64,000 bases of DNA from NCBI GenBank assembly GCA_030248295.1, contig JASANH010001553.1, positions 1 to 64,000 of the forward strand, read 5' to 3'. The translations under genes were made by a program, and so were the position numbers. Below, one piece after another: positions 8,357-38,000 of the stretch; position 1 is the first letter of the stretch, and every line of letters starts with the position of its first letter. This stretch comes from Mesodorylaimus sp. YZB2_4. Lineage: Eukaryota > Nematoda > Enoplea > Dorylaimida > Dorylaimidae. The notes beneath the pieces are model-generated. The model worked only from the letters and a program-made list of their open reading frames with translations, had not been told where the DNA came from and searched no databases.

Positions 8357-9286
8357 TCAGTAAGCTTCTCGATTTGTCCTTCTATAATATTCCCCGTAGG
8401 TCATGACCTCGAAATTTGGGGTTTCTCCATTTTTTTTGCAACCATCTAAACATTCTATCACGGCCTCGGAATTCATGACCACGAAGTAAGCCACTGACAA
8501 TCGATCAGGCACGCAGGTCTCGTCCGACCATGCCACTTTGTGCACAGTGGCCTTCCAATGACCGTTGGTCAAAAGTTGCAGGACATGACCCGCATTGACG
8601 AAGACAGCTCCGGCCACTGGATCGCCATAAACCCACTGGCCATCATTTTTTTGTACCATCAAGGATTTGGCGCAAGAATCCGTTGCCAAAATAGTAAATA
8701 GATTAGAATCGGTGTGCTCAGGGAATCGATGACTTTGAGCAACTTCGGATGTTTTTAATGCAGGATAAAAATTGGCTTTCATAATATGCTGGCCATGATT
8801 GCAATTGCGGGAAAAATAATTTGGATCAGTCGGATTTAGAATCATGGAAAAAATATTCATGAGGGAATGGGATAAATTTTGAAAAGAAGTATAATAATTT
8901 TGAACATTATTTGTCAGAGATGGTGGTATACTAGGGTACACATTTTTGGGTACGTCTGAGGAATTACGAGGACCGCATACAAATCTTTCGACTGGATCAT
9001 TTGGGAAATTCGGTCGACCCATGTAAGCATTGACATTTTGAGTTTCAAAAGGAATATAGCCGCGGAGATGATTCTTGGACAGAAGATATCGAAATTTATA
9101 TTCAATAGGTTGGGCGAAAAAGGCTCGAAAATCAGCGAATGTCAAGTCAATCAATTCTGGATCGATTGCGTGATTGCGGACATAGAATGAGCCAAATTCT
9201 CTCATGGCCGTCTCGACTTGGGAGACCAAATCGTTGAGATTCGACCGCAAGTCAATCATAGGAAGGCCGTGAGGGGATAATTCCAT
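8357..9286 (-). CDS. Isopenicillin-N-synthase-like 2-oxoglutarate/Fe(II) oxygenase, intronless
   Basis: A single 309-codon open frame. It starts with a short lead-in to the LPMIDLR strand typical of this family, followed by FGSFYVRNHAID (the F-Y-V-x-N-H helix-strand). The metal triad is H191 and D193 in EHTDSN, and H249 in TVHKV. The co-substrate-binding R-x-S is R262/S264 in DRLSVAYF. NAGHVLQLLTNG matches the family N-x-G-D-x-L-(Q/E)-x-(L/W)-(S/T)-(N/G)-G segment, with His replacing the usual Asp. The C-terminus TYGEYYRR is also typical. Members use O2 and usually 2OG to hydroxylate, desaturate or cyclise small molecules; the substrate cannot be read from sequence. It has no introns although neighbouring genes are intron-rich, consistent with horizontal transfer or retrotransposition. 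All catalytic residues are present, so it is probably active. Confidence 0.9.
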   Translation of the reverse strand: MELSPHGLPMIDLRSNLNDLVSQVETAMREFGSFYVRNHAIDPELIDLTFADFRAFFAQPIEYKFRYLLSKNHLRGYIPFETQNVNAYMGRPNFPNDPVERFVCGPRNSSDVPKNVYPSIPPSLTNNVQNYYTSFQNLSHSLMNIFSMILNPTDPNYFSRNCNHGQHIMKANFYPALKTSEVAQSHRFPEHTDSNLFTILATDSCAKSLMVQKNDGQWVYGDPVAGAVFVNAGHVLQLLTNGHWKATVHKVAWSDETCVPDRLSVAYFVVMNSEAVIECLDGCKKNGETPNFEVMTYGEYYRRTNREAY

Positions 9287-10287
9287 TTCTGAATTTCAAA
9301 AACATGCAAATTCGAAAATTGAGACAGCCCCAGCTTTGGCAATCTGGAGCGCAAACATCAAAGTCTACGGTACTGTACTTATCGCACCAGGCAAGGACAG
9401 CCTGTCTGGGCTGCACTTGCAGACAACACTTGCAAACTGGCGCAAAGAAGAAGATGTGCCGCACAGATTTGAACTTATTGAAGAAGGATGTGCTTTCCCC
9501 GCAAGAAAAGCTTAGCATTTTCTGCCTGATTAAATGCTTTGAGCAAGCAAAATACAGCGTAAACATGAAACTTTGCAGTATCATATTATAAACTGCAGCA
9601 GGTAGGCAGGCTGGTCCCATTCATGCAAACATGTGGTGGGCCGCAGACTTCTTTGCGCAAAGTCGTAAAAATGTATGCACCTGAAAATTGCAGCTGGTTC
9701 TTTCGTAAAAATTACAGAAACAAAACCGCAGGCATAGAAATTAATTTAAAAACTTTTGCCTTGACTAGGATTCGAACCCGTTTGATGGAACAGACAGACA
9801 GTGTGGCTAGAGTTCTCTGCTTAAATGCAAGGTCCGAGCTTTTGCATACATTTGTGGATGCTAATTCTCACCACGGACTCTTTGTTTCTTTCAAAAAACT
9901 GCTCGTAAGATACGCGAGTAGAATGTATTTCAAATTTAGCGCCTTTACAATCTTTATGACAATTTGCTGCGCAGATGTGCGAGCCCGCCGTTTGCTACCG
10001 TAATCCAGCCAAGCCGCGCTTATCGATCGATCGATTATAACCTTTCTTTTATTTTTCTGTTCCGTGTTCTTTCCGATTAATTTTTATTGATTCATCATTT
10101 CGGGCATGGACCTTCGTGATATATATCGATTCTGAAGCTCGGCCCAAAATATGGTAGGTCCGCATGAAAATTTAGTACATAGGCCAGCGGCTTACTTTCG
10201 CGACTTGTTTTGCTGCATTGTTTTCTAGCGTGAGTATTTTCTGAAATTTGTTTCGCTTTTTAGTCGCGCGATATTCGAAATTTTTTT
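9287..10287. other. Divergent intergenic region between the oxygenase and RFC1
   Basis: The two genes point away from each other, so both promoters lie here. A tRNA B-box-like fragment (minus strand GGGTTCGAATCCTAG) lies near 9767-9781. Short frames in this stretch have no family support. I see no unambiguous TATA or initiator. Confidence 0.35.
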
Positions 10288-15228: not shown

Positions 15229-18200
15229 CTAGAACTTGGTTGGCAAGGGCTCAACGAGGGCAGGCTTTATATCAGACGCTCCAGCCTGCTCCTTGGCTGG
15301 GTGCAGTAGCAGCTTCTCTAATCCGATGATCGGAGCTTCGAGGGCGCAGCTGACGAAGAAGGATGCGAACATGGTGACGACCACGATGCTGATCCACTTG
15401 CAAATCTGAAACAGGTGGGTGGTGGGGTGTTGTAGGGGGGAGGCCAGGGGGCAGTTACCCAGTTGAAGTGGGTGTCCCAGTGAAGTGGGAACTCGTTCGA
15501 TGCCACCACGGCCCCGATGACGGTGTAGTGCAGAAGGTAGGTGCAGTAGCTGAGCCGACTCAGCGGCAGCCAGCCACGCCACGAGAGCAGTTCGTTGATG
15601 GGCCCTACAGAGATGTGATGAGTAGGGTCCTCGGGGGACGGGGGCGGGCTTACCTCCCCGACCAGTCAGACAGGCGAACATGAGCCAGCAGATGCACAGG
15701 CTCCAGACGGGTCGTGTCACAGCACCGTACAAGGCTCGCACCCCGACTGGCAGTTGGTTGCCCTTGACGTAGTCTGTCAGACCGTAGATTATGGCCAGGG
15801 CCACAGCGAAGGCAAGCGCCCATGCGACGAGTGCTGTGAGCTAAAAGGGGGTCGTGGTCATGGATGGTCAGCATGCTGTGCTAACCCCACAGTACTGCCC
15901 TGAGTTGTGTGCTCCAGTGGCCTACCTTATGCAGTTGTTTTTTGTGCAGTCCCTTCTTCCATGCGTACCCGAACAGCAGCCCGATGAGGTAAGTGGGGAA
16001 GCGAGTCCATGGAGGCATGTACACCAGACGCATGAAGTCATTGACTAAGTCGGCATGGTTTTGGGAACTGAAATATGCGGGGCACTCGACTGAGGGATCC
16101 ATACTTCATCATGCAGACTGTTCTTACTGGTCTTTTAGCGCGCCAGCTATCGGAATAGGTGGAAAATCATAGACTGCAATCGTCGCTGCTGTGGCGCCCA
16201 TTGATGCCAAGATGAGAGCGGCTGAGAGAAGGAAGCCAGCTGCTGGGGAGCTGGAACGAATGACTGTGTAGAGGATATCTACTTGCTTGTTGTGGCCTCC
16301 GTGATTCCAGCATTTCCAGCCAATTAGACTGGCCGGATCTCAGCGGGAAGTGCACACTAAATGTGATTATGAGCCCTCATACCCGTTTCTGACAGGCTAC
16401 ACTTCACAGGCCAACGATCCCGCCACATAGTGCACATGCAAACAGGGCTTACTATAAGAGTAGGAGTAAGATGACAGGCGCGAGTGCATAGAACTGCATG
16501 TCGTTGGGCAGGTACCAGGCGGGCCCGTAGCACTGGTCAGTGGGGTAGACGAGATTGTTGACGTAGAGCAGGTTGGTCCACCATGTCTTCGAGCAGTCGC
16601 GTCCTATCGCTGAGCTCAGATCGAATTGGTGCGGTCCTTTCACAAAATAATGTGACAAGGTCGCATTCGTGCCAATTATTAGCATAAACACTGGCGTCAG
16701 TCTAAATCAAAGAAAATTGATTCAAACTGCTTCTGCCCGATATGATCAGCGCACTTGGACCTCATCTGCGCGCCGTCCTAGGTCCAACTCCGCTGCTACG
16801 AGAATCGCGATAAGAGTACATGCAGTAGTTAATTCATGTATTGTTGACGTGATATGAATATGATTTCGATATTTCTGTCAATAAAATATGGATATGGATA
16901 TGGCATTTCGGGATAAGACCAGGGTCATTACTTCTCCAACGTTTAGTCCTGCCGTGCGTAGGGTGGTAATTTGAATTTTTTCCGGGTCTCCTGCGCCTCA
17001 TGGATTTTTCGCTTTCTTCAGGGCTTTTCCGAGTGATTAGCCATTGCTCCGCTATTATAGAAGCCCGTGAAGGTCGCTGGGCATGTTGTTGGGCCAGCAT
17101 CACATTGCCGGCGAAAAGCCCGAGCTGTGCGGTATCTTTCAGATAAAAATTCCAAGACAGGACCAAAGAGAAGATAAAAGATTGTTTGCTCTATGAGTTA
17201 GACCAATAGAACAGTCTGTGTCCTGTATGTGTGGACGCTGGTCACTATCGGGCCCGCGGGTCAACACATCGGTCTGCCACATGTACCCAACATACCGATC
17301 AAACACACCAATCTTTGTAAAATGCAAATACAGTCGATTCCCCTTAATTGCAAATCGGATAATCGCATAAATCGCTTTATTGCATAAAATTTTTAAGTCC
17401 CGATTCTTTTCCTATACCCGCTATGTAAAAATCTTCGCATAAATCGGATAAGCGCATAGCCTTTAACAGAACGACGCATATGCTACATATGCATTCTGCC
17501 GTCGGATAATTGCATAGCGCCATCGGATATTCGAATAACGAGCTCCTCAGTTTCCCACGGTTCCACTCTTAGATTAGATTAGATTAGATCTTCATATGAG
17601 GTTGAGCAGGACGTTTTGAACGCAGGAACAGGCTGCCTTGAAACTACGATCACAGATTAACTTGCAAAAGATCACTAAATAGGTGTTCATACATGCCGCT
17701 GCTTATTTGGAGTTTTGTTTGATATCTTATGCGATTAAAGTAGAGGTCATTAAGAGTTTTTGCGAGAATACTGAATTTAGCATAATGTGCTTGAGCAAAC
17801 CAAGCTAGCTTGCCTCGCTTGATCGAATAACTCATCCATATATGCATATTATGCAAATATCCGATGTTTCGGATGAAGGAATAAACCGGTTAATTGCATA
17901 TAAAATTTTGGTCCGGAGGCTGTGCAATTAAGCGGAGTTGAGTGTACCTCAGATCTAAAATCAATATTTATCTATATCTTTTGAGAGATATAGATTTGGA
18001 TACTCATATCCATATCCATAGAGTTCTGTATACTGTAGATGGCACGAGTAAAGACTGCACGATTTAGGATGATTAGATGCACTTACCTGATATAACGATG
18101 CAAATAATATGCAATCCAAGTATTTTTTGATTTGACAAATTTGGAACCAGATTTCTCCTCTTCTTTAAAAAATAAATACGCGACTAAAAATCCGCTAAAA

Positions 18201-21200
18201 AAGGAGACAGATTTCAGATTTTTAATCTTTGTGCTCATCACAGCAAATCTTGCGAGCCTGGCGCCCCTAAAAAATTTTGCAATGCCAGTATACCTCATTG
18301 TGAAAAATGTATCCACAGAAAAGGTCGCGTTATTAATTACTTCGACTGACCAATCGTTTCTCAATTCGTATGCGTCGACCAAATTATCTAAAATTGATGT
18401 GTTTTACATTTAGTGTGTCTTTTTCAAAAATATGAGTTACCTGCATATTGCAAACGCAAGTATGTATGGCCGAGTATAACCCAGAGCATACTTAGCACCC
18501 TCATGCCGTGCAAACACTCCAATTGGCCACTTCGTTTTGTCATGTCCAAAATCTTCTTTCCGTTTGTATACAACGAGAAACATAGCAAAAATTCTGTTGC
18601 GACTGCAACGAAATCAGTAAGATTTTCAATGATAAGGTAAGTGATTTAATAGAATAGTCGCTTACAATTTTTGCGGCGCTGGTTTTCCAAAGGAGACCCG
18701 TATAATTGCTCTTGAACATAATCGACAATTGTCGCTAGGATTACTGTAGCCCCGATTACAGACAATAAGGCACTAATAATAAAACACACAGCTTCAATTT
18801 CTTGTTGGCCCTGTTTTTGATACCCCTTACTCACATCATTATAATTGCGCCTGTGCTGAATTGTTCTTCTTCGATACAAAAAACGTTGCAGGCCATGGCT
18901 CGGAGTTTATCTGTAAATAAACATCGATGTGCCTGTCAGTGACGGGCCCAGTTAGTGATTGAAGGAATATGTAAACTTTTCACACAGCATTCCTTGCTTG
19001 CTATTGACGTCAAGACAAGTTAACGCTGGCACCATCACCCTGGTAAACAAGATATTGGATCATCTCCCAAATTACATGCATGGTAGCCGATTTTTTAAAA
19101 TGATAATCTAAACCAGGATCGCGTTATCTACTTTAGTTCTGACGTAAATCAAAGCGTCGTTTGCGCATCGAAAAAATATTTACGTTCAGTTCGCTCAGTT
19201 CAGTTTGATTTCGTCTGGCCTTGTAAATGTTTGCATACAGGTGAATTATAAATAGGAAGTTTTTCTATGGACGAGTTCACTTTATATCAGCTGCTGATAA
19301 TAAAGCTTGCAAGGTCATGGGTGTGGCTTGAAACAAAATAGGCTTTTAATGCCAATAAATCTTCTCAAATTGCTGTCAAAGACTTTGACCTGTGGCTTGC
19401 TGAACTTAATGGAGAGAAGATTTTATGAAGTTTTTTTTGGTGTTTGCGAAAACACTATTTTTAATGCAACAGGCTTATTGTCAGTGCAACTGGTGGTGAG
19501 CAAGTAGCGGTCTAGAGTGTGCAGCGCAGGTTGCGAAGCATAATTCAGCCGAGCAGGACTCTTGAAATGCAGTGGCCTACTGTACTGAGCGAGCAACGAA
19601 ATAAGAATCTGAGTCTGAGTCACTGCAGTATAATACAGTAGACGGGGTGGCAGTGTAGCGTTTGCACCCCGGGAGAGCCAACAAAGTTTTCCGACCTAGC
19701 CCGTAGTTGGAACATCATCCTGATGGGTGACGCTCACGGCTGCTAGCTCTGCAAATAATCGATTGCCACTCGAGATTCTACAAAATCTTTTAGTGCGGTA
19801 GGTACTGTACTGCACTGTCCATGCACCCCAACAGTACACCACCAAACGGCATAGCTACTAGGGTGTTCCGCCATCCTCCAGTGCAGCCTCGGTACATTTC
19901 TCCAGCTTGCGCTATCACGCTCGTTCCTGCAAGCTATTGCATTTTGTGCAAGCTATTTCAGCGTTTGCGGGCCCGTGCAGCCTCATCCTTCGACCACAAA
20001 AACTCACCATACTGCTGTACTAGAGCCAATGCATCCATTCTGTCGCATGTGCTCGGTATGCAAAGCCCCCATCGAATACTGGTTCCATATTGAGTCCAGT
20101 CGTCTGTCATTTCCGGGCAAGCACTGGCCCCATCGCCAAGCGCCTTGAGGGACATCATTGCATAGCAATATTTCCCTCGATACTTTCTGAAAAATACGTA
20201 ATGCGCTCGAGCATTTGCGAGGCTTGGTTTTTTTGGTTCAAAGCTAAATAGGCATTAAATGGAAAGCAAGTTTCTATCAAAATGCATACCCCCTAGTAAT
20301 ATTTCCTGGTGGCCTGTCCACGTTGATGCTGGTACATTCTCCATAACTGCCATGCCAATAATAGTTTAGCCGCAGGACGCCTGATGGCACTTTGCCGAAC
20401 GAATCAATTTCTAAAAATTGAAACGTATAATTTTATACTTTCTAGATTTTCTTCAAGATGTGATTTTGTATCATCCCAGCCCAAATAATTCTAGTTGCTG
20501 CGAAGTGTAGCTCGGCATACTCGTATCCGATTTTTTTCTTCTTTTTATCACAAGTCAATAATATCAGTTAAATCATGAAATCAGCTCAAAAAGTTACTCT
20601 TGACTTGCAACAATATACGAAAGAAGAAGTCAAAGAATTGCTGCAAAAGAGCATTACTAGGGGAGACTGGTAAAAATGGCAGAGTCCTGTACGCGCTGCT
20701 GAATGAGATATCGCATTCGCACGAGTGCAAAGAATCCATGGAAAATTATGTTTTGACTAGCATTGAGCTCCTTTTCAGCAGGCAGTCGTTATGCAAAAAA
20801 CACCTAGCTCAGTCAGTCTCGTCCTTTCTCCCTCGTAATCAGCTCTAGCGCACACAGCGCAGCCTCAGCTGTCTTCCTAAACTTGCCATTATGTATCCTA
20901 CTGTATATTATATCCTATCGCTGCAAAAACATGCTGCCAAACTGCGGTTCAGAATTGTTGCTCTCCAAAATAATACAGTCTTTTCCGCCGATCCAAATCG
21001 CATTTTTATAATGCCAAGAATTACAGTAACTGCCTGCATCGTCTTTGCTCTAGCCGCGCCTCAAAATTCATGAATTAGACCACGTAAGGTTTGGAAAACA
21101 GCTCGGATGGCATTGTGTTCTGTTTCGTAGACTGCGCTTGCTTTTAGTTTCCACAGGCCAGCGAAAGCATCGCTAGCAATCCACAAGAAAGGACTTTCTT

Positions 21201-21721
21201 GGATAAGAAAAAGTGGGTATGGCACACATTTTACACCACTGATTCAATTTAGAAAATTAGAAAAAATACTCACAAATAGCCTTAAAGACGCAAAAAGCGG
21301 AGAAATGGTTTTTGGGGTTGCTGTACTTACGCGTTTGAGTCCAAGCCACATTTTTTCTCGCCTGGCTATGAATCTTCTGGCATTCGCTGTCATTGGCTCG
21401 TGCACAGGCCTTTATAGCAGCAGATTCATCTTTGTACTTTTGTTTTGAATCGCGAAAAAACTGCACATCTTCCGCGCACGCACTCGACAAATTCAAGGCC
21501 CAAACTGGTTTAGGCTTTGGTATAGACGGGGAAAATAAATCGATTGTGCCAAATATCGGTAATAAATCTTTGAATGGCAAAATTATGTTATCAAATTGAG
21601 AACGAATGTTTTGAAAATCAGCCCATTTTTGTAATATTTCTGTCTCTCCATTTTTTCCTTTGACTAATAATTCAAATTGGAGTAAGAAAATCACAACGAG
21701 ATGCAGATTTCGGCTAATCAT
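15229..21721 (-). CDS. NRF-6-type acyltransferase-3 family membrane protein, copy A (intact, 14 exons)
   Basis: The family (nose-resistant-to-fluoxetine; acyltransferase 3) comprises multipass membrane proteins implicated in lipid or drug transport and acyl transfer. Minus-strand exons in order: 21331-21721, 20290-20410, 20008-20186, 18835-18910, 18666-18772, 18441-18602, 18294-18387, 18087-18194, 16453-16701, 16128-16250, 15926-16067, 15654-15840, 15459-15604, 15229-15405. All phases agree and give 753 aa. A signal peptide (MISRNLHLVVIFLLQFELLV) leads into the Cys-rich extracellular NRF domain (SSACAEDVQFFRDSKQKY; IRWGLCIPSTC). The acyltransferase-3 domain starts with LECLHGMRVLSMLWVILGHT (about 319-337; conserved His 337). 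It continues through SVDTFFTMSGFLVAYLFFK, CYGPAWYLPNDMQFYALAP, PPWTRFPTYLIGLLFGY and SRLSYCTYLLHYTVIG. Substrate unknown. Copy B lies about 4 kb upstream in the same orientation. Confidence 0.92.
17331..17944. mobile_element. pogo/Tigger-like MITE in intron 8 of acyltransferase copy A
   Basis: The left terminus is TA-CAGTCGATTCCCCTTAATTGCA. The right terminus, reversed, is TA-CACTCAACTCCGCTTAATTGCA. Both are bounded by TA, as in Tc1/mariner-pogo target duplications. CAGT-x-x-A-x-x-CCCC-TTAAT is the usual pogo/Tigger end. The interior is AT-rich with repeated CGGATAAxxGCATA units and a GATTA microsatellite (17571-17590). No transposase frame, so non-autonomous. Confidence 0.65.
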
Positions 21722-23249
21722 TGTAATCGTACGGATTTAAATAACGCAGCAAATAGTGATCCTACATCCGCTTAGGACTGACGTTTTGTCTTGGCGACAT
21801 CCGATATATAAGCCAGTCCCTTATCACTTGAGCAAATATGTAAGGATGGTCTGATCTTTTGTCAATGCCGCATGTACCGCGGTGGGCGCTGAAACGAGGG
21901 CGGGCTGACGAATGAAATGTGGTCTCATTTTTCCATCAAGTTTTTATCAATAAACACTTGTTTTCGATAAACGGATACTTTCTGTCGAAGGCAGGCGCAC
22001 ATTTCTTTTTCAAATTGACGCTACTGTGTGCGGCAAACTTTTATTGACGTCTAATGCGTCAAAAATTCAAAACGCTTAACAGAAAACGTTGAGTGCGCAG
22101 TTTTTATCGGAAGTTAGCACCCAACACTGACGTCGGGCCTGGTATGGAAACAGTGAGTGGACTGCCGTGGCTGCCTGATGCGCGTACACGCTGCGTCCAC
22201 GTGGCTTGTATGACTGACGGTGAAGCACGGCGCGAGGAGCAAACTTATCCTTGCATCATGAATATTTGATAGCGTCCAGGGCAAGGGCAATTGTTGAAAT
22301 GTCTTATCACGCACTGAGAATGAACTATAAAATTCTTCCAAATAGAAAGTCTCCCCTATTCGATCAAAAAAAAGATATATTTAAACTCCGTTTTCGAGAC
22401 CATTTTCGGCAGAAACTTTGTGCGTACAATATAAAAACCTTGCTAAAACTTGACATCACGCATGAATACTGATTTCAATACCCATTTACTTCGCTTTCTT
22501 ACACCCATCTGGCTGATAAATATATATGTAAAATGGCCTATAACAAAAAAGGCGCACCGAAAAAAGTGCATCCACGATAGATAGAGCGCAAGTGAATGCG
22601 ATTGTTTTTCGAAAGCAAGGACAAATCAAGAATTCGTTTTGGACCCTGATCGTTGTGGAGATTGGTGACCAGGCAGCGTCGTACTCATGCGGGTAATGGG
22701 GACTGGGGAAGCAGCAAGAATTCCTGTGCAAATGCGTTGAGCATCTTTCTGACGTGGAACTGACGATGAAGGATTTCAAGATATCGGCTTACATGGACTT
22801 TATTTTTTGTCTTCTATTGACGTGATTCGGCGCCTTGCCAAGTTAGAACAGGTGGTGACCATTCGAACTTGGTGGATTTAGGCTAACTTTTGCTGAACAC
22901 GGCTCACCAACCCTGTGCTGGATCCCAAACTTCAAGGCTTCAGCACCAAATTTAATGTTTGCTTAAAAACAATCCTTGTCCAATCTTTTATTGGAAATTA
23001 ATATCGCGAGACACCGCTTGTGGTTATCAAAAAGTACATCGAAGGGAATTTCGTTCGACCGCACGACTGTCTTCCGTAATTCACGACTCACGACCGGATC
23101 GGATAGGTTGAGAAAAATTTCCGTTTCAGATTGGGTCGAATAAGTGTAGAATCGGATCGATACTGTACTGTTTATTCCTCACGTATGCGCTAGTGGGAAG
23201 ATCGTGGGACACACTAGGAAATATAGCAAAAGCAGCTCAATCAAAGAAC
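21722..23249. other. Upstream region of acyltransferase copy A and spacer before the LINE
   Basis: Holds the presumed promoter of copy A. No gene with supportable features is seen. Short frames on both strands lack domains. A GGATCGGAT fragment near 23094-23105 belongs to the GATC-satellite type of sequence found elsewhere in the window. Confidence 0.35.
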
Positions 23250-24515
23250 ACACTACAAAGCGGCACTCGAAAGACCCTGTCTAAAAACATCATCGCTGTA
23301 TGTCCACGCCAATTCAGAACTCAATTTGTTCCATAAAATAGTTGTCGAATGTTCAAAGCACTGCTCAGAAGCCTTGGTTCTCGTGCCATTTTCAGGTAAA
23401 AACAGTGAATGCTCTTTGTTCAGTCTTTCACTCATCCTCCTACCAGGCTCTAATACATGTCTGAAACGAGCATTCGTGCCAACCATGATAAAATTTATGA
23501 AACTGGACGCTTCAGTTCCTGTCGCCTCCGAGCCAAAGGCTGCTCACAACGTTGCTGCCCACGATCCCACAACTGATAAAAGGTCGTCGTATTCACTGGA
23601 CCAATCGTTGATGATAAGACTGAGAGCATATCTCTGGGCATGCTCCGAATTATCAATGTCAGCCTTCAAAATCGGATCCCATGCCTGACAATTTGGATCG
23701 AAAGCAAGCCGAGTACACCACTCCAAGAAAGTGAGGTGATTCGTGCCGACCAAGTTTGCGACAAAGTGCACTCAACATGCTGCGTGCACTAGAAGAAATT
23801 TTTGCCACGTGCTCAGAAAATTTAATGTCCGCCGACATTGTGACCCCCAAATAAGTGACTTCATCAACGAAGACAAAACGCTGTCCATCAAGGGTCAATG
23901 AAGGCACGGTCGAAGGCAACATTGGTGTACCGAAACGCAATGGCCTGACGTTCCGATACATTTAAGTCCAGACCAGACGAGTGAAATCGGCGCTCAAAAA
24001 GTCCAGAGCTGCTTGAATCGTCCTCGCGCGCTCCATAGAAGGCAATGGGATGAGTAAGCATGTGTCGTCCGCGTAACACTGGAGCCGGAAATCAGGGAAT
24101 TTCGAGGAGAAGCTCGCAAGAGCGGGTCAATGAACGAAATAAATAAAAGAGGGCCTAGCACGCTCCCTTGCGGTACGTCAGATAGGACCCGCATCCTCCT
24201 GGGTGCACAGCCTTTCACACTAGCACTCGTACTGATGGCGATCTTTCAAATACGAATGTACAGTATTCAGCTGATTAATTTAGTGTGGACGTCGATGCTG
24301 GGATTGCAGAGTACGCAGTAGAAGTGAATGCGGAACTCGGTCAAATGCTTTCTGCACGTCCAAGAAGATGCCAATTACCAAACCGTACGTCTTCTGACTG
24401 AGCCAATTAAGGATAGTTTGCGTATAATTAATTAGAGCTCCAGTAGTTGATCTTCGCTTACTGAATCCATGCTGATTTTCTGACAATTTGATATGCTGAC
24501 GAAGAAGACGGTCAA
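23250..24515 (-). pseudogene. 5'-truncated LINE (CR1/Jockey-like reverse transcriptase), dead
   Basis: Minus-strand frames together give RT landmarks in order. NQHGFSKRRST and IFLDVQKAFDRVPHSLLL match the RT region with the first catalytic Asp. LSDVPQGSVLGPLLF is the P-Q-G-S-V-L-G-P-L-L motif. YADD lies at 24064-24075 in CYADDTCLL. FVDEVTYLGVTMS follows, and the C-terminal ILWNKLSSELAW ends the region. The pieces lie in different frames with stops between them, so it is not functional. The endonuclease domain and 5' part are missing: homology stops at an artificial-looking hairpin at 24494-24537. The clade call is tentative. Confidence 0.8.
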
Positions 24516-24537
24516 TCGACCGTCTTCTTCGTCAGCA
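24494..24537. repeat. Perfect 20-bp-stem hairpin at the truncated LINE end
   Basis: TGCTGACGAAGAAGACGGTC is followed by a 4-nt AATC loop and its exact reverse complement. The lower-coordinate arm is in frame with the LINE RT coding (encoding RLLRQH just before IKLSENQHGF), so the higher-coordinate arm is an inverted duplicate of coding sequence. Confidence 0.9.
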
Positions 24538-25439
24538 ATTCAAATTAACGCATCAATTCTTTTCGAAAGGCCGCTCCCCAAGATAGGCATACAGTATTCA
24601 TTATCATGGCACCACGGCACAAGCAGTATCCCTCTCAGAGCTTTTCCACGCTGCTCATCGCGGTACTTTGCAAGCTGATAAAGTAAAGAAGATTCATGCT
24701 ACTCATAAAAAACCGAAACTTCAATTTTTTATAGAACGGATATTTCCACTTTTTTCACTTCGCTTCAATATTCCTGCCGCATAACTCCAAGCCGATTTGC
24801 AAATCTGACAGTGCAACCTTCCCAGCCGTTAACCAAAAAAATTGTAATTTGTTTCTGGCTGCAAAAGAAAGCACTCTGAAAAATATAAGAGGCGTCTTAC
24901 CAATCGGTCAGCAGTAGTCAGCGCCAAAAGTCTGGGAATTTTCAAAAATCTTCTAGATTTTTGTTAGGTTTTGTCTCAAAAAACCCGAAACCCGAGTGTT
25001 GGAAGTCTAAACTCGAATCCTGGAACCTAAAAACCGAGTTTGGGAAAACCCTGTGTTTTTCTCACGCTCGGGCTCCTTAGCACACAATTATTCCAAAATT
25101 TTCAGGATTTTAGGCCATCGCCATTGCTGATCAGTTAACTAGACGCCTCTAATATTTTGCAGAAATCTTTCTTTGCGCCCAGAAACAATCAACAAATTAC
25201 AATTTTTTGGTTTGTCAAGTTTGACTTGAGTGTTGGCGATGGTGCCTTGTCAGTTATCCATGTTTCCTATGCTCGAAGAATAATGAGAAGATGACTTGTA
25301 ACTGTAATCGTGAGCAGAAAAAAGGAAGCAAGAATGCAGAATATTGATCTCATCTCATTCATTACGCCAGAGTGGTTGGAGAAGAGAAGAACTGCGCGAT
25401 AATTGGTTGCTTGCCAGCGGTTATTGCAACCAGTTTGAA

Positions 25440-25556
25440 ATTTCGGATCGGACAGTTCAAGATCAGATGATCCGATCCGAATTATCGGATCTTAATTTTT
25501 TGATCAATCGGATATCTAATCAGAACGGATGGGATCCGATCCGATCCAGCCATAAT
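25440..25556. repeat. GATCC/GATCG pentamer satellite block 1
   Basis: Degenerate GGATC and CGGAT units such as GATCCGATCCGA and GGGATCCGATCCGATCC. Related, purer blocks lie at 50090-50185 and 51045-51195. Confidence 0.6.
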
Positions 25557-26708
25557 TCACGACTCTTGCCTTGAACCCCAGAATTCGTTTATTCGCTTCA
25601 GTCGATTTGCTCATAGTCGTATGTTTGATGTATAGTCGTAAGACCCGCCTGTATCGGCCACGTTCTCTCCTGCAAGGCACCAGTGCACGAAGCTCCTTTA
25701 CAGAAGGAAAAGGGTGTCCGCGCAGTTTTTTAATAAAGGCTGTCCTATGAGAATTTTGAGGCCCCAATAAGATCCTTCGCAACTTCTTTGCAGTACCGCT
25801 CACTGATGCACCATTCCGTGGCCGCACAAGCTACCCCTATGTAAGCAGCAACAAATTTATAAGGATGATATCGGCAGCTATTTCAAGTCACAAAATTGAT
25901 ACACTTTCCGAATTGCTGTACGAAAAAGGACGGCTATTTTGAGGGCACGTGTCGTTTATCAGAGAATCATCTTTTAAAACCTGGTGGGCAAAGACTCATC
26001 TGATGCAGGTTTTGAATCGCAGTTTGCAGGCTCCTCCTTGGCTTGGTGCAGTAGCAGTTTCTCTAATCCGATGATCGGAGCTTCGAGGGCGCAGCTGACG
26101 AAGAAGGATGCGAACATGGTGACGACCACGATGCTGATCCACTTGCAAATCTGAAACAGGTGGGTGGTGGGGTGTTGTAGGGGGGAGGCCAGGGGGCAGT
26201 TACCCAGTTGAAGTGGGTGTCCCAGTGAAGTGGGAGCTCGTTCGATGCCACCACGGCCCCGATGACGGTGTAGTGCAGAAGGTAGGTGCAGTAGCTGAGC
26301 CGACTCAGCGGCAGCCAGCCACGCCACGAGAGCAGTTCGTTGATGGGCCCTGCAGAGATGTGATGAGTAGGGTCCTCGGGGGACGGGGGCGGGCTTACCT
26401 CCCCGACCAGTCAGACAGGCGAACATGAGCCAGCAGATGCACAGGCTCCAGACGGGTCGTGTGACAGCACCGTACAAGGCTCGCACCCCGACTGGCAGTT
26501 GGTTGCCCTTGACGTAGTCTGCCAGACCGTAGATTATGGCCAGGGCCACAGCGAAGGCAAGCGCCCATGCGATGAGTGCTGTGAGCTGAAAGGGGGTCGT
26601 GGCCATGGATGGTCAGCATGCTGTACTAACCCCACAGTACTGCCCTGAATTGTGTGCTCCAGTGGCCTACCTTATGCAGTTGTTTTTTGTGCAGTCTCTT
26701 CTCCCATG

Positions 26709-26903
26709 TGTAACCCCTACCGGGCAGGCCATGGCGAGTGGTAGAGAGTAATCGATACTCTCCCCTGGCTGGGACGTCAACCCCTCGGGTTGATGTTTCT
26801 AGGTCAGGTATAGTCGCGAGACTTGCCTACCTCCAGTCGGAGTTTTTGTCCCGCCGACTTTAGTCGGCCGCACTCCCTCCCACGCCTGTCCGCACGAGTT
26901 GCA
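26709..26903 (-). mobile_element. ~195-bp element inserted in copy B exon, copy 1
   Basis: Interrupts the exon encoding PWTRFPTYPIGLLFGCA. Copy A runs straight through the corresponding site (15960-15975), so the boundaries are visible: CCATGTG-TAACC on one side and GTTGCA-CATGCG on the other, with a possible CATG(T/C)G target duplication. The interior contains CCGCCGACTTTAGTCGGC, CTCGGGTTGATGT and CCATGGCGAGTGG, shared with the copies at 27656 and 4934. Confidence 0.75.
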
Positions 26904-27655
26904 CATGCGCACCCGAACAGCAGCCCGATGGGGTAAGTGGGGAAGCGAGTCCAAGGGGCCATGTATACAAGACGCAGGTAGTCTTTGGTGTAGTCGACAA
27001 CGCTGAGAGTAGTTCTAAAATTGTGCCGAATATGAAAAAGTTTCTGATGAGCATTGTGATAACAGAGGCGCACTTGGGATCGGTTGGTGCTCCAGTGACT
27101 GCCATGGCTGGAAATCGATACGCTACGATTGTTGCTGCTGTGGCGCCCATCGATGCTAGGATGAGTGCGGCAGACAGAATAAAGCCAGCCACCGGGGAGC
27201 TGAAATTTAGGCCCAGCTGGTACGGCCTGTTAGCACGATTCAACCCTCTCCAGTCCCGTCCCCATAGTGTACGTGCAAGCAGTTGCACTTGGCTTACTAT
27301 AAGAGCAGGAGCAGGAAGACAGGCGCGAGTGCGTAGAACTGCATGTCGTTGGGCAGGTACCAGGCGGCCCGTAGCACTGGTCAGTGGGGTAGACGACATT
27401 GTTGACGTAGAGCAGGTTGGTCCACCATGTCTTCGAGCAGTCCAGTCCCGTTCCAGAAGTTAGATCATACTGATGTGGTCCTCGCATATGTTGTGACAGG
27501 GTTGCATTTATACCAATTATGAGCATGAACACTGGAGTCAATCTAAAAAACACTGCTGCTTACATTTTGCTGATTGTTAGCGAACGGATGTTTCGAAGTC
27601 TTGTCCATCAGAAATGTGCAATGTAAAGACCAATGTACAGTATACATACGTGCTA

Positions 27656-27838
27656 TGTAACCCCCTCCCCCCCTTGGTAGGCCATGGCGAGTGGGAGAAA
27701 GAATAATCGGCACTCCCCCCCCCCCCCCCCCCCCGTTAATGTTTTAGCCGTAGGTACAGCCGCAAGACTCCTGATCCAGTCAGACTTCTTGTCCCGCCGA
27801 CTCTGGCCAACCACCTCCCTCCTACGCCTGGCAGCCAT
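27656..27838 (-). mobile_element. ~185-bp element in a copy B intron, copy 2
   Basis: Begins TGTAACCCCC, then GGCCATGGCGAGTGG, AATCGGCACTC, a 16-nt poly(C) run, GTTAATGTTTTAG, CTTGTCCCGCCGACTCTGG and CCTCCTACGCCTG, in the same order as copy 1. Flanks suggest a short duplication (ACG-TGCTAT on the left, ACGCTAT on the right). Non-coding. Confidence 0.7.
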
Positions 27839-29789
27839 GGTACGCTATTAGTGCTACTACTTACGGTACCTTCCTATCATAACACTACGTTTTTGTGCAC
27901 GATTTGCGCAGGTTGGAACTGAAGATAGTGGCTCCTGCACATTGCAGCATCCTCTGATATCTCTGACGCTGGGTGCAATGCAACGCTATAACCAAACTCG
28001 GAAGAGTTCACTTAAACTGCAAAGAACATTTGGGAATGATTACCTGATATAGCGATGCAACTAATATGCAATCCATGTTCTCTTCGGCTCAATAAATTTC
28101 GATCCTGATTTCTCCTCTCCTTTCAAAAATAAATGTGCAACCAAAAAACCACTGAAAATAAAGTGTTAGATTCTCGTTTTCCATCCATCTACTCTACTGT
28201 GCGTACTATATTTTCTCTTTTCTCTCCCACATTTGCACATCGCAGCGAAAACCTACCTCATCGTGAAAAATGTATCCACAGAAAATGTTGCATTATTGCT
28301 CGCTTCGAAAGTCCACTCTTTCAGCAAGTTAATTGCATCGAGCAAGTTATCTGATATTATTTGATTTTACTTCTTGATACTGCGGCAAAGCCTGTATTAC
28401 CTGCATATTGCACATGCAAGTATGTATGGCCAAGTAGAACCCAGAGCATACTCAGTGCTCTCATGCCGTGCAAACATTCCAATTGACCACTTCGTTTCGA
28501 CATGTCCAAAATCTTCTTTCCATTCGTATACAACGAGAAACACATCAACACTTGTGTTGCGACTGCAACGAAATCGATTTTCACCTCTGCTTATTGCATG
28601 TTTCAACCACTTACAACTTTTGTGAGGCTGTTTCTCGAAGGGTTCGAATTGCTCTCGCACATACATAGTCGACGACTGTCGCCAGGACGACTGTGGCCCC
28701 GATGATTGATAACAAGGCACTAAAACTGTTATTCTTATGTTGGAACAAGGTCGAGCACCAGTTACTCACATCATTATGATTGCCCCGCTGCTGAATTGTT
28801 CTTCTTCTTCGATACAAAAAATGTTGCAGGCCATGGCTCGGAGTTTATCTGTAAATAAACATTGATGTGCCTGTCAGTGACGGGCCCGGTTAGTGATTGA
28901 AGGAATATAAACTTGTCACACAGCATTCCTGCCTGCTGCTGACGTCGAGATAAGTTTGAGCTGGTACCGCGATGGCAGTGATATCAAAATAAACAAGATT
29001 TTTGGATCATCTTCAAAAAATTACATGTTCGCTGGCACAGTTGTGATTACTATTAAACCAGGATTCGTTATCTGTTTTCGCAGTGACCTAAATCGAAGGC
29101 CTCGCAGCATCAAAAACTGTTTACACTTTTGGTTTGCTGTTGATTGCGTGTGTCTGCTGTTGTAATTGTGATAATATGGTTAGTTAAAATTAGAAAACCC
29201 TTTTTTTTCTGTGCGTGTGGACCAAGCGTCCTGTATGAACGCTACCGGGTGGGGGACTTTCATTTTGGATATTGACGGTTTCTGACGACAAAAATGTATC
29301 ACTAGCTGGCTTTTGCAAAATGAACCATGTCATAGCGGTATCTGCTGGGGGTTATTCACTCTTTTTTATGATTAAAACGGTTGGGATAAAACTTGGGAAA
29401 GGAGGACCCTTGCTACTGTAGCTTCCTGCTGACCAAGCACGGGCTCTACATATATTTCGAGGACACACACTGTACTGCAGAGTGCGATCACAATACTCAC
29501 CGTACTGGTGTACTAGAGCCAGCGCATCCTCTCCATCGCACGTGTTCGGTCTGCACATGCCCCATCGAATATTGGCGAAATAAGCAGTCCAGTCGTCCGT
29601 CATTTTTGGGCATCCACTGGCACCTTCGCCAAAAAGAGCCCGTAGAGATATCATTGAGTAAGAATATTTTCCGCGATATCTTCTAAAAAGTACCCAATAC
29701 CTCGGTTCGCGAACTCGTTAATTCCTTAAGATTTTTCAATGATTTTTGGATAATAAAACAAAAGCCAGCGATTAATAACACGTTAATGT

Positions 29790-30116
29790 CTATAGACCAT
29801 GTCACAGATCTGAACAATGCAAAATTTGAATTTCCCGCTGCAAACCACTTATGGCAATTGTACATAAATGAAAAGTTCCTTATTTTAAAGGTTGTGCGCG
29901 TCCCTCTCTTTGAAGCAGTTTTAAACAGAATAACACAATAGCAACAAATTCTGGCAACTTTATGACAAGAAAACTAATTAAAGCCAAAAATCAGGATTGT
30001 CACAACAGCTAGCGCAGAGGCTTAATTCGAGAAACGGAATTTTGTCTCAAAAAAATTGTCACAAGCAGGAAATTTAAATTTTGTAATGTACGAAGCCAGT
30101 GACATGGTTTATAGCA
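29790..30116. mobile_element. MITE (AAATTTGAATTTCCCGCTG family) in copy B intron 2
   Basis: Left end TATAGACCATGTCACAGATC then AAAATTTGAATTTCCCGCTG. The right end carries the inverted counterpart AATTTAAATTTTGTAATGTACG and CATGGTTTATAG. Copy A's intron 2 (20187-20289) is only 103 bp and lacks it, which dates the insertion after the duplication. Confidence 0.7.
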
Positions 30117-30608
30117 TAAAATTGGGTGGGAAAATTCAAAATCAAAAATGACATACCAACACATGACCTGACAAAATGACATGATATTGTGTGGGAAATG
30201 AAACGAAAGGTGCATACCCGTTGATTGCCTGGTGGTCTCTCAACATTTATGCTGGTACATTCGCCATAGCTGCCGTGCCAATAATAGTTAAGATGCAGGA
30301 CGCCAGGTGGCACTTTTCCAAACGAATCCATTTCTAAAAATGAAATCAGAGCATATCTTTTAGCCTGAAAATTTGTTGGTTGGTGCCTGTCATACAAAAG
30401 AATTTGACTTGGCTGAGCTGGTGGGCGACAAGTTTATAAACTAGCCTTCATGTTAAGTGTGTGCTAAACTAGTTCAGTGCTAAATTTAAATGTCAAACAG
30501 GTTTTCTTATCTGCCATAGACCGGAGATGCATCTGAGTATAATAGAGATCTTTTTAGAATGCTGCAAAAAATGGTAATACGCAAATGTAGGCTAAATTAT
30601 GATCCTTA

Positions 30609-30665
30609 ACCAACTTGGTCATTGAATTTGTCGAGTGCGTGCGCAGAAGACGTGCAGTTCTCGTG
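30609..30665 (+). repeat. Inverted fragment of acyltransferase exon 1
   Basis: The plus strand reads TTGGTCATTGAATTTGTCGA followed by GTGCGTGCGCAGAAGACGTG, matching the coding strand of exon 1 (LNLSSACAEDVQF) with few differences, but on the strand opposite to the gene. It lies inside intron 1 of copy B. Confidence 0.65.
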
Positions 30666-31179
30666 CAGAAAACGGGTTAGCCGTGTGCGTCTTTGCCTTG
30701 TGAAAACCAGTTTTATGCTCATCTTTAACGTGTAGGAAGTGGTCTTTGTTCGAACCGCGGTAATTGGGTCTCTGGACCCAAAAAAGACCAACTAGGGGTT
30801 TTAATGGCATTTAAAAAATGTGTCATTGCTGTAGTTACACTTGAAAGGAAATCTCAGCGCTGCGTGACATCTTTTTCAAGTCAGTTGTAAGATCATCGAG
30901 TGGCTCATTCGATGGCTTGGGTCTCACCTGTCGAACAGCTTCCTGGGATACAATATGAGGTGTTTAAGGCTCGCTTCTCGGGAGAATCTGATCACGTTCC
31001 GGCTGAAATTGATCATCACCTATTGTTTCGAGCGAGACATTAGTTCGAAGCTGTACCACGGGACAGGTTTGCGTTGTCGTTTGGGGGACAGCTGCAGGTT
31101 TCGTTCACACACTGTTCGAATTGACTGTTCTTATTTTGCATGTTACCCAGTGCGCTCTTGGCGTTTGGTTAAAGGGCGG

Positions 31180-31530
31180 ATATAGGGACCGATTGGCCTG
31201 TCTTCTCCTTATTGACCAGTAGCCGGGTAAGGTGTCGCGCGGCCGGCAAGGTGGCTTCTGATTGGTTGACCGTCCAGGGGGAGGAGCGGCGCGTTTGATG
31301 TGGCTAACTAGGAGAACCTTGCCGAGCCACAAGGTATGTTGCATAAGAGGGCGTGTTTTGTGTATGCAGAGTGGTGGTTGTTTTAGTTTGATAATTGTCC
31401 TTCGGTGAGTGATAATGGATTATTCGCCATGAAGACGATGTTTCAGCCTTCGCCGGCAAACAAATAAAACGTGAATCATGCATGTTCTCTTTCGTTTTTC
31501 CTCGGGACTCAAACAATAATCTTTCAAATT
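31180..31530. other. Possible solo LTR or similar regulatory-type repeat
   Basis: A TATA-like GCATAAGAGGGCG near 31342 is followed by an AATAAA about 120 bp downstream (31461-31466), then a T-rich TTTCGTTTTTCCTCGG. This order (promoter, polyadenylation signal, U5-like tail) resembles an LTR. I cannot find convincing TG...CA ends or a target duplication, so this is tentative. It lies in intron 1 of pseudogene copy B. Confidence 0.25.
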
Positions 31531-31749
31531 TTCCTACTTTATTTACTTGTCTTATCTTATGACGCATGAACGGTCGACTTCTCCTTGCTCTCATCGTCAG
31601 TCTTTTGTCAAAAAACATAAGAGATGAAACGATAGTTCATTGCGTGTTTTCTGAGTGACTGGTTTATAATTTCAAGGTATCAAAATTTATATTTATTGAC
31701 CTTACTGATCAGCTTAAGCTACCCGAATCTGAAACTAACTTTTACTCGA

Positions 31750-31820
31750 GGATAATGTGGCACCTCCCATGGATACACTAGAACTAGAATAGTATATCCA
31801 TGGGAGGGGCCACATTATCC
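31750..31820. repeat. Long hairpin: 26-bp arms, 19-nt loop
   Basis: The left arm 31750-31775 (GGATAATGTGGCACCTCCCA then TGGATA) is the reverse complement of the right arm 31795-31820 with one mismatch. The loop is CACTAGAACTAGAATAGTA. It lies in intron 1 of the acyltransferase pseudogene. Confidence 0.85.
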
Positions 31821-32521
31821 ATGGGCACCTTCAGTTGGCGAGAAAAAATTTTCAATTTTCTGTCGCGAGCGCCTTGTAATCGTCCTGCACTATAAAGACG
31901 GTTTGAGCTAGTTGAGCATAACCTGCGTCAAAGCGCCACTTTTAAATCAATTCTCGAAATCACAGCAGCAGCAGCAAGAATCATTTGCCTGTATTTTTAG
32001 TCCTGAACCAAAGAACAGAACAGCTTTCCCCAAATGCCAGAATTAGCACATCACCTGAGCGTAAAAGTGAGTTTCAGATCCATGGTCACCTCATTAGCTT
32101 ATATTTCATGGCAGTACTTACGAGTTTGAGTCCAGGCCACCATCTGCCTCGCCTGGCTGTGAATCTTCTGTCATTCGCTGTCATTGGCTCGACGGCATGC
32201 CTCGATGGCCATCGATTCGTCGTTGTACTTTTGTTTTGAATCACGGAAAAACTGCACGTCTTCTGCGCATGCACTCGACAAATTCAATGACCAAACTGGT
32301 TTAGGTTTTGGTATGGAGGGGACAAATAAATCGAACGTGCCTGATGTCGAGAATAATTCTTGCAATAGATTCATTTCATTTTCCAATTGAGTTTTAAGAA
32401 AGTGGATGTTTTGAAAATCGGCTCATTTTTTCAACAGTTCTGTCTCTCCATTTTTTCCATTGACTAATAATGGGAATTGAAGTAAGAAAATTGCAGCAAA
32501 ACACAAATTCCGGTTTATCAT

Positions 32522-33744: not shown

Positions 33745-34082
33745 CAGTTATAAACCATGGCATAGGTCTCGAACAGTGCATAGTTTGAATTTCCCGCTTC
33801 AAGCCGCTTATGACACTTTCTCATGGATGGGAGGCCCTCACTTTAAAACCTGTGCGCTAGTTAAATTTACAGAAATTTTCTATCGACAGTTTTCCTCATT
33901 TATGGCTTCAATTTGGCTTTCTTTCCAAAAAGTGGTCAGAAGTTGTTGCTATTCTGTTTAGAAAAGCTTCCAAGAGCGAAACCTGCACAAGCTTTGAAGT
34001 AAAAAAACCGTCATAAGCGACTTGCAGCGGAAAATTCAAATTTCGCGTTGTATGAGATCTAGGAAATAATATGCTGGCAAAA
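33745..34082. mobile_element. MITE (AAATTTGAATTTCCCGCTG family), intergenic copy
   Basis: Left end TATAAACCATGGCATAGGTC and TAGTTTGAATTTCCCGC, with GCCGCTTATGACACTTTCTC just inside. Right end GTCATAAGCGACTTGCAGCG, AAAATTCAAATTTCGCGTTG, TATGAGATCTAGG. The interior shares GTGGTCAGAAGTTGTTGCTA with the copy at 36900-37116. Confidence 0.75.
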
Positions 34083-35068: not shown

Positions 35069-38000
35069 TCACTCCACCGCGGCCTTAGGGGGTGTGCACT
35101 GAAGGCCATGAACATCGGCCGAGTGTTCCCTCAGCACATCAGCACTTCGATACCATTTTCGACAAATCAGACACCTCAAACCCACATTGATCCTGTGCGC
35201 TTTGTGCATATGCGATGACAGACCCCATTTGTTCGGAAATACGGCCTCGCATAAATTGCACGAACGACTTTCGGCCACAGGCTGCCTCTTCTTCTCCTCC
35301 CTCGCATACACATCCATCGACTCGTAGTCCAATCCGTCCTGTGGCGATGCAGGTCGTAAAAGGGCATTCGCCGGCTGTGAACGTGGCTGTGCTTTTTTGT
35401 TTTTTTTCTCCTTTTTCCCTTTTTTCACAATTGCTTTCTTGGGCGGATATTTCCTCGGTCGACCACGCGGCCTCTTGATTTTTACTTCCAATTTTTCTTT
35501 TGATTCTGTCGATTTCGATTGTTTTGGTGACGTTGGTTTCTCGCACTCGCCCAATAACCAATCCTCGTTATCATCCTCCGATTTGGCATGTTTTTGTTTC
35601 CGTCCTCGTTTCGATGACGTTCCAGGTTTGTTATCGTTCTTTTTCGCCACCCCTTCGTCCTCCACCTCCTCCTTAATGACTGATACAGCCTCCACCGATT
35701 CAGTGCCACCTAAAATTATTGATTTCTTGTTGATTCCGATCGATGATTTCGCTCCATTCGTCAACATCGCGCACGGCAGATGATCCAACGACAAACCAGT
35801 CAAAAACGAATGAGCACCAGTCGAGGCCGATGGCGTACGTTCATTGGGGGACGAGATTGAATCACTTCGATTTCCAATCCACAGATCATCCTCCTCCATC
35901 GCCTGCCTGATCACTTCGGGATCCATGGACAAGGCGGCGGCTGGTAATCGTCGAATGGCTTCCCGAGAATGTTCCGTTCTCAGATGATAAGCTCGATCGA
36001 TGGCCGTTTCGAACCAGGCCGAGCATAGGCTGAATAAGCAAGGACTCCAGCTCGGATGCGTCTTATTGACGTGCGCTGTGAGATCGCTGACTCGAACCAG
36101 TCGGCACACGTGGCAACAGTCGATCATTGCCGCGGCTCGTTGTACTTTGCTCGCATCCAGTTGGGAGATCGGTACAATCGAGTGATCGGAGAAAACTGAA
36201 ATCGAGCCAAGTGCAGGATCCCTCTTATCACCCGCAACATATTAGACTGGAAAGCCTCAATTTTAGCATTAGCAAGCGCCCTTCACTGAGAAAAACCCTT
36301 CTGCCCAATATCTTAAAATGGCGGGAAAACAAATTTTCAAATTCTGGCACCTATTACAGCAGTTTTGTTACAAGCAGCTGCACAACAGATCAAATTTGCT
36401 CATAATTCGAGATTTGCGCGGTATTTTAAAACTTAAATTTTCCTCCATTGTTGGCTATAGACCATTTCACAGGCTTCGTTCATCGCAAAATTTGAATTTT
36501 CTTATTTCAAGCCGCAAGCCAGGACAAGACCGAGACAGTGTTACATAAACGAAAAAGAGCCTCAATCAATCCCGTCAAGATAATGTTTTTAAGGACAGCG
36601 ATAGATCGTTTTTCATTTGGAGGCCCCTTCTTCGACATCTAGTCGACAGCCTGCGCGCTAGTTGTGTAAACTTTCAGCGCGCCCCACACGCCTCGAATTT
36701 GAAACTCCCGCTTCGACTGCTTATGACAATACATCAAGGAAAAAGCGGATCTGCGCGCGATCTTATGCAAATTTCGGCTGACATGATGAAGATCGATAAT
36801 CTGCTTAACAGATCTGCTCATTAAGTGTCAAATTGTCATAAGCAGTCCAGCTACGTTAATCGCGGGAATTCAAATTTTTGCTGACGCTAAATAGGTCTAA
36901 TGACAGAAATTTTGTTGACAGTTCTCCTTGCTCGTGGCTTATGGGCTTTCTTTTTAAAAAGTGGTCAGAAGTTGTTGCTATTCAGTTAAAAAATGCTTCC
37001 AAGAGCGGAAAGCGCACACGTTGAGTGAGGACCTTTTTATATGCAAAACTGTCATAAGCGGCTGGCAGCGGGAAATTCAAATATCGCCTTGTACAATATC
37101 TGCGAAATAATCTATAGTGCACTATGCTCAAGGACAAAGGCAAATGAGGGAAATCCGCACACACAAACTTAAGGTCTAAACGAACCCGCGCCTATGGGAT
37201 TGCAGCAATTGCCGAGAGACGGGGTTCGATTCCCACTCAGAATAAAGTTTTGGTTTATGCGCGTTGTTGCATATTTTAAGTTTTTGCAAATCAAATACGT
37301 TACTTACTAATGGGATCCACCTTTTCTTTTTGCTTTCCTTTCTTCTTTAGACTAGAACAGTCTTCCTTGGCGGGTGACTTTGCTAAAAAACATCGCAGTT
37401 AAACCCCGACGCAGCATTGATATCCCAAAACTCACCTGCTGTCGTTGCGGTTGTGTTAACTTTCGAGACTGTGGCAGGAATTTTGGCAGGTTTTGCTTGT
37501 TCAACAATTGCGGCACCAGCTGGCGGCGGCATTGCAGTTGCAGGTGGACACTGACGAACTGTCCGATAAAGAGGTGGCCGCCACATGTCCGGTGGAAGAA
37601 TAGGTGATAGTATATCTAAAAAAGGAACTTTGACAACAAACCAGCGCATTTCTATAAAAAAGAGTAAAAATCGATTTAAAAAAGCGTAACCCGTCAAGAT
37701 GATGTTTCAGGCGTGAGGCAAGGCCAGGGACAGCGACCGATCGCATTCCTTGGAGCCCTATTATTAGTCAGCTAGCCAGTCCATAGGCAAAGGAGCTTAC
37801 CATTCGACTTAATGATGGGTTGCAGGGCGTTGTTAATGACAGCCAGGTCATCGCCGTGACAACTGGCCACGTGATCGTGCAATCCCGTTTCCGTCATCAA
37901 AACCGCCGGGCAGAGAGAACAACGAAAACGATTCATTTCTCCGCCTCCCAACAACGATGCAGGTTTGGATAAAATCGGTACTGCTCGATAATCACGTTTT

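Follow-up and report, generated by a model that had tools for sequence, protein, structure and literature searches.

The relationship between two tandem genes of the NRF-6/OAC acyltransferase family was analysed in a window of 64,000 nucleotides from the nematode Mesodorylaimus sp. YZB2_4 (assembly GCA_030248295.1, contig JASANH010001553.1, positions 1 to 64,000 of the forward strand). The two genes, termed A and B, lie in the same orientation on the minus strand, and parts of them are nearly identical while the rest has diverged. This pattern is very probably the result of interlocus (ectopic) gene conversion without crossover between two old NRF/OAC acyltransferase-3 paralogs. Gene A (15229-21721) is intact, and its spliced model of 14 exons with GT-AG introns gave an uninterrupted reading frame of 753 amino acids. 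The protein showed the two-domain arrangement of the family, an N-terminal NRF domain (Pfam PF20146, 1.8e-18) and an acyltransferase-3 domain (PF01757, Acyl_transf_3, 2.3e-26), both passing the Pfam cut-offs; PMC12799122 names Ser, Tyr and His residues that are conserved in the latter domain. The introns around the last exons of gene A are short, at 49-85 base pairs (bp), while introns 1, 3 and 8 measure 920-1385 bp.

Gene B (25974-32521) has exons homologous to those of A and is a pseudogene, in line with the initial annotation, which had called one of the two copies broken. Three in-frame stops were found, two in exon 1 (32423-32425, TGG in A to TGA in B; 32171-32173, TGC to TGA) and one in exon 8 (28061-28063, TAT to TAG). 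A 1-bp deletion lies in exon 9 (within 27365-27369). Exon 2 (30218-30333 by hand count) has 116 bp compared with 121 in A, which breaks the frame unless splicing differs; the exon-anchored alignment of A and B sets its boundary one base further. Exon 5, as aligned, is two bases shorter than in A. Exon 11 carries an insertion of 198 bp (26706-26903, minus strand) made up of a dispersed repeat of about 194 bp and a 4-bp CATG duplication, and the corresponding site in A is empty. At least 39 other copies of this repeat at 88-97% identity and two partial ones were present in the best 40 of 2853 first-look candidates that were scored. The upstream exons differ in length (exons 1, 3 and 4 are longer in B by 9, 3 and 3 bp) and the introns differ too, in agreement with the upstream divergence described earlier.

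The two genes were aligned with their exons as anchors, over 5037 columns, and piecewise segmentation of this alignment defined four patches, P1 to P4, all on the minus strand. In A, P1 (15289-16009) takes in the end of exon 11, exons 12 and 13, the greater part of exon 14 and introns 11-13, and it showed 15 mismatches in 721 columns (97.9%), 13 of them transitions. Its partner in B, 10.7 kb away, spans 26034-26953 and now carries the 198-bp insertion. Both limits of P1 fall within exons, the first in exon 11 and the second in exon 14, and diverged sequence flanks it, so that near-identity at homologous positions is bounded on either side by divergence, as in an interlocus tract. The initial annotation had seen by eye about ten differences in 15290-15960; the near-identity was confirmed, introns included, while the count came to 13. 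P2 takes in the 3' part of exon 9 and the first 10 bases of intron 9 (A 16443-16598, 6 mismatches in 155 columns, 96.1%; B 27280-27442, with the 1-bp deletion that is absent from A). This patch had been noted before with slightly offset limits (16453-16610 and 27298-27455). The segmentation revealed two further patches that had been missed. P3 comprises exon 4 and 87 bp of intron 3 (A 18827-18997, B 28762-28932, 8 mismatches in 168 columns, 95.2%), whereas, when A is compared with the relatives on contigs C153 and C380, similarity around exon 4 sets in just some 20 bp ahead of the exon. P4 is weaker, covers exon 6 and part of intron 5 (A 18437-18628, B 28397-28583, 19 mismatches in 187 columns), and possibly represents an older exchange. 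The identity along the alignment was thus not uniform, with about 90-98% in the patches and 40-76% in the segments outside them. A direct blastn comparison of the two genes returned a best match of 690 columns at 97.5% (15282-15970 and 26027-26716) and remaining matches at 75-90%.

Introns 11-13 of A and B differed at 5 of 187 columns, which is near-identity at neutral sites, compared with 48% identity over 2361 columns in introns 1-10 (P3 left out). Introns 12 and 13 were 98% and 100% identical between A and B, while 23 between-branch comparisons in the family gave means of 48% and 45% and maxima of 54% and 55%. These values bear out the earlier argument that protein-level selection does not account for the intron identity. 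The synonymous divergence (dS) between A and B was 0.015 in P1, 0.139 in P2, 0.196 in P3 and 0.38 in P4, against 1.22 for exons 4-14 outside the patches and 0.77 for exons 1-3. Between A and C153 the dS was 0.865 in P1 and 1.66 in the flanks, and therefore P1 evolves generally somewhat more slowly but is not frozen. The longest identical run between A and B reached 177 exon columns and 100 third positions, compared with maxima of 84 and 47 in 10,000 shuffles. A GENECONV-like permutation, as had been proposed, was performed with our own script (not the published program) on exons 4-14 of seven loci, giving 21 pairs, with values uncorrected for the number of pairs. For A and B, 0 of 2000 column permutations attained the observed value. 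The corresponding counts per 2000 for all sites and third positions were 1 and 18 for C153-C86, 47 and 8 for C492a-C492c, and 59 and 20 for C380-C86 (with runs of 10 sites only), and the remaining 17 pairs gave at least 119 and at least 193.

The age of the pair was assessed from trees and from divergence. The tree of P1 required A and B to be sisters, and both alternatives tested were rejected by the approximately unbiased (AU) test (0.0012 and 0.0014). The best tree of the flanking parts of exons 4-14 differed, joining B to C153 and C86 with an ultrafast bootstrap of 93; the placement of A with C153 and C86 was rejected (AU 0.013), while the sisterhood of A and B was not rejected (AU 0.113), and for this reason the age of the pair rests on the saturated dS. 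Judged by their sequence divergence, A and B are old paralogs and not a young tandem duplicate, being outside the patches about as distant as different branches of the family. The exchange proposed by the initial annotation thus stood, on the two-sided patch, the introns, the dS contrast and the different best trees, but the single event it had assumed is probably not correct. Synonymous differences numbered 2 of 131 in P1 and 4 of 31 in P2 (Fisher p 0.013), and P1 also differed from P3 at synonymous sites (p 0.006, with 2.5 rounded to 3). When all columns were compared, P1 and P2 showed no difference (p 0.24) and P1 and P4 differed (p 4e-6). The unequal synonymous divergence among the patches suggests at least two events and probably not one.

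The lesions of B gave some insight into the order of events. The exon 11 repeat and the exon 9 deletion lie inside the patches yet are absent from A, and hence they most simply arose in B after the exchanges; B may have been broken only after them. The stops in exons 1 and 8 are outside the patches and give no ordering. The repeat was also considered as the stopper of the tract and was rejected, since the 48 columns of P1 beyond it hold 2 mismatches, in line with 13 in the other 673 (p 0.26), whereas the 58 exon 11 columns that follow hold 20. The P1 coding differences were polarised where at least four outgroup loci agree. All 6 changes derived in B were nonsynonymous compared with 1 of 3 in A (Fisher p 0.083); in the flanks the nonsynonymous and synonymous counts were 19 and 5 in B and 14 and 10 in A (p 0.21). 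The contrast within P1 is as expected if a decaying B and a working A evolved on after the exchange. The donor was estimated by arithmetic on the P1 and flank trees, with P1 scaled to the flanks by the distance from C153 to C380/C492. The branch lengths pointed both ways, the distances of A and B to C153 favouring B as donor and those to C380/C492 favouring A. Copying from the intact A to the broken B, one of the directions named in the initial annotation, is possible but is not shown by these distances, and the lesions of B within the patches are absent from A.

The events may be pictured as the repair of a break in one copy by copying from its tandem neighbour without crossover. The strand exchange was probably seeded in exons that are well conserved between A and B and would then have run through the short introns 11-13. 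About 720 bp (P1) would have been replaced in the last event, P2 and P3 and perhaps P4 would go back to at least one earlier event, and B would have kept decaying, acquiring the exon 11 repeat and the exon 9 deletion once the exchanges had taken place. Short introns together with conservation may set where exchange starts and runs, with the long introns 1, 3 and 8 interrupting the homology elsewhere. The repeat now present in exon 11 of B could hinder further exchange, following the idea of a 'terminator mutation' described in PMC3966223. A cDNA (complementary DNA) mediated copying of the 3' end was rejected because introns are included in P1. Conversion in yeast shows a bias to the 3' end.

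The recurrence of such patches was explored in the family, whose members were located by a protein search of the source genome, with the counts being lower bounds. The close group includes at least contigs C153, C380, C86, C378 and C492 (twice) and pieces on C504 and C416; more distant members on C41, C70, C195, C10, C107 and others were among the matches listed. The segmentation was run on seven pairs (A-B, C492a-C492c, C153-C86, C378-C86 and three pairs on C41), and three of them had a clear, bounded patch within the acyltransferase core. The C492a-C492c patch, which begins within exon 12 and reaches roughly the end of exon 14, showed 94.7% over 581 columns with sides at 76.6% and 69.0%, and introns 12 and 13 of this pair were 86% and 97% alike against 36-74% in introns 5, 6, 7, 9, 10 and 11. 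Exon 9 of the same pair (92%) was not counted as a further patch, its dS of 0.37 being not clearly below the 0.55 of the pair. The third patch, between loci L061 and L063 of C41, which are non-adjacent with L062 between them, showed 95.8% over 693 columns with sides at 58.5% and 79.2%; visual inspection showed an identical exon 9 homolog, and the patch takes in its introns, though these are less alike. The C153-C86 pair was not counted as a conversion pair. Its dS drops from 0.21 to 0.04 in exons 12-14, but the introns do not clearly follow: identity is 93% in intron 12 and 81% in intron 13, compared with 89% in intron 7 and 85% in intron 9. A separate observation concerns L058 (C378) and L059 (C86), which are 97-98% alike over 4.7-6.2 kb with the similarity stopping abruptly within the gene near exon 7; these are either alternative haplotypes or a recent truncated duplication.

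A tentative and rather doubtful extension of these results is that the acyltransferase core (exons 9 and 11-14) could be a standing hot spot of conversion. Members whose N-terminal NRF part and introns have drifted far apart would then keep re-copying the core with GC-biased repair, and a pseudogene would take part, perhaps even as donor. An overlap of the patches by chance is not unlikely because those of A and B cover much of exons 4-14, and the hot spot is put forward as a hypothesis. If it is true, tandem OAC pairs of near-identical sequence in other nematodes may consist of old genes that have been kept similar, and not of young duplicates.

Several observations weigh against conversion between A and B or against its wider recurrence. 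P4 could reflect chance or constraint, the flank tree did not reject A and B as sisters, and the nonsynonymous excess of B in P1 rests on small counts. Exons 4-8 also have short introns yet hold only P3 and P4, and so the intron geometry alone does not place the tracts. Four of the seven segmented pairs lacked a clear bounded patch: on C41 the highest values were 69.5% for L061-L062 and 81.7% (over 278 columns) for L062-L063, C378-C86 only stepped from 97.6% to 99.7%, and C153-C86 showed a mild step from 89.2% to 95.4%. The data come from one assembly, and a misassembly is formally possible. In such an assembly or polishing artefact the reads of one copy would have written the 3' end of the other, and the C86 and C378 loci are so alike over 4.7-6.2 kb that alternative haplotypes may sit as separate contigs. 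This explanation is nevertheless judged very improbable, as the window holds no N, the 15 P1 differences are spaced and mostly transitions, with the six polarised to B all nonsynonymous, the patches show several levels of divergence, and similar patches occur in other pairs, although these pairs belong to the same assembly.

An unequal crossover or a recent partial duplication at the 3' end would suit the tandem arrangement of A and B in one orientation with patches 10.7 kb apart. Such an event would leave one junction and alter the copy number, while every patch occupies corresponding positions in the two genes and is flanked by diverged sequence on either side, and several separate patches would require several double events; this reading was already disfavoured and is held to be very unlikely. 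Purifying selection or a low local mutation rate has in its favour a somewhat higher conservation of the 3' exons in the family as a whole, with lower dS there in the tabulated pairs. It is hardly credible given the intron 12 and 13 identities, the contrast in dS between P1 and flanks, which is about 80-fold for A-B and about 2-fold for A-C153, and the pseudogene state of B. The base composition bears on a further alternative, that a third GC-rich paralog, lost or unassembled, overwrote both genes. The GC content at third positions of exon 13 was 86% in A and B compared with 45-64% in six paralog loci, and introns 12 and 13 had 63-65% GC in A and B compared with 36-54% in the five loci measured. 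The derived changes shared by A and B in P1 comprised 19 AT-to-GC and 2 GC-to-AT, whereas other lineages in the same exons gave 5:13, 11:11 and 7:15 (p 8e-5, 0.007 and 1e-4 against A and B). The genome search listed, outside A and B, long matches at 71-73% and shorter ones at 79-83% over 70-170 bases, and this explanation requires two events and an unseen donor, so that it is scarcely probable. Conversion between A and B is preferred, and the composition hints at repeated GC-biased repair in P1, a lead and not a proof. The test of P1 against its own flank is weak (AT-to-GC to GC-to-AT, A 21:2 versus 12:7, p 0.055; B 23:4 versus 15:8, p 0.18), and the P1 core (15313-15959) has 59% GC, with several other 650-bp windows of the 64 kb reaching 59-62%. 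A Drosophila review reports tracts with more GC than the adjacent sequence but no more than the family members that escaped conversion (PMC3924832); in the present case P1 exceeds its relatives in GC.

Other features of the window and the genome were also recorded. An intronless frame of 312 amino acids (8357-9295, minus strand) encodes a 2OG-Fe(II) oxygenase with DIOX_N and 2OG-FeII_Oxy domains, and its best solved-structure match was an ethylene/succinate-forming enzyme (1.1e-24). Further open copies at 42-53% were located on C86 (two), C283, C17, C77 and C431, and no copy was found when bacterial and archaeal genomes were scanned by pattern, an approach limited to close relatives; this intronless family was possibly acquired horizontally. 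A fibronectin type III frame (45468-46142, minus strand; PF00041, 1.2e-19) is overlapped by long open frames on the opposite strand. A dispersed repeat occurs in both orientations at 29790-29938, 33749-34070, 36903-37117 and 42101-42290, with pieces mostly 75-83% alike. A poly-C tract (51427-51568) contains 119 copies of C at 79% match and is adjoined by GGATC repeats at 51054-51129. The nematode telomere repeat is TTAGGC, and its arrays in the genome gave 972 forward and 921 reverse exact 24-mers, sometimes far inside contigs (C15, C17 and others, for example C15 near 246 kb and 506 kb) as interstitial telomere-type repeats. No exact SL1 match was found in the source genome.

The OAC family of C. 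elegans, in which nrf-6 is placed, resembles the present case in having acyltransferase-3 genes with tandem near-identical pairs and pseudogenes (PMC12799122). There the identity of oac-25 and oac-28 was read as recent duplication, while that of A and B is confined to parts of old paralogs. The term 'gene conversion' is absent from the main text of that paper, and a search of open-licence literature, a thin basis for calling conversion in this family unpublished, returned no paper joining 'nose resistant to fluoxetine' with 'gene conversion'. The result serves as a warning that tandem duplicates of these enzymes that look young, for instance the ones linked to the sex pheromones of C. elegans (PMC12799122), may be old and partly homogenised. 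The GOT1 paralogs of Tigriopus californicus show a similar mosaic of high and low divergence from ongoing conversion, studied with population data where A and B are known from one genome, and conversion there need not keep both copies functional (PMC3728101).

Tandem paralogs of nematodes are already well known to undergo interlocus conversion that takes in introns (PMC3966223). In C. elegans duplicates it was reported for 2% of 7829 pairs, more commonly at short distance and with introns in 15% of events (Semple and Wolfe, cited in PMC3966223); the mean tract there was 117 bp (range 12-2958), and P1 is well above this mean. The closest system is fog-2/ftr-1 of C. elegans, also tandem paralogs with repeated interlocus conversion, in which one tract reached into sequence that is only 77% identical (PMC3966223). 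That pair has a synonymous divergence (KS) of 28% and tracts of 39-145 bp, compared with a flank dS of about 0.8-1.2 and a longest tract of about 720 bp for A and B, and it differs from them in that here one partner is a pseudogene and several tracts occur in one pair. The same review states that no robust estimate exists of the divergence limit for converting Caenorhabditis paralogs, and a recent copy of some 720 bp between genes as diverged as A and B would lie beyond the KS of 28% discussed there. The type of event is known, and the interesting parts here are the divergence of the partners and the recurrence.

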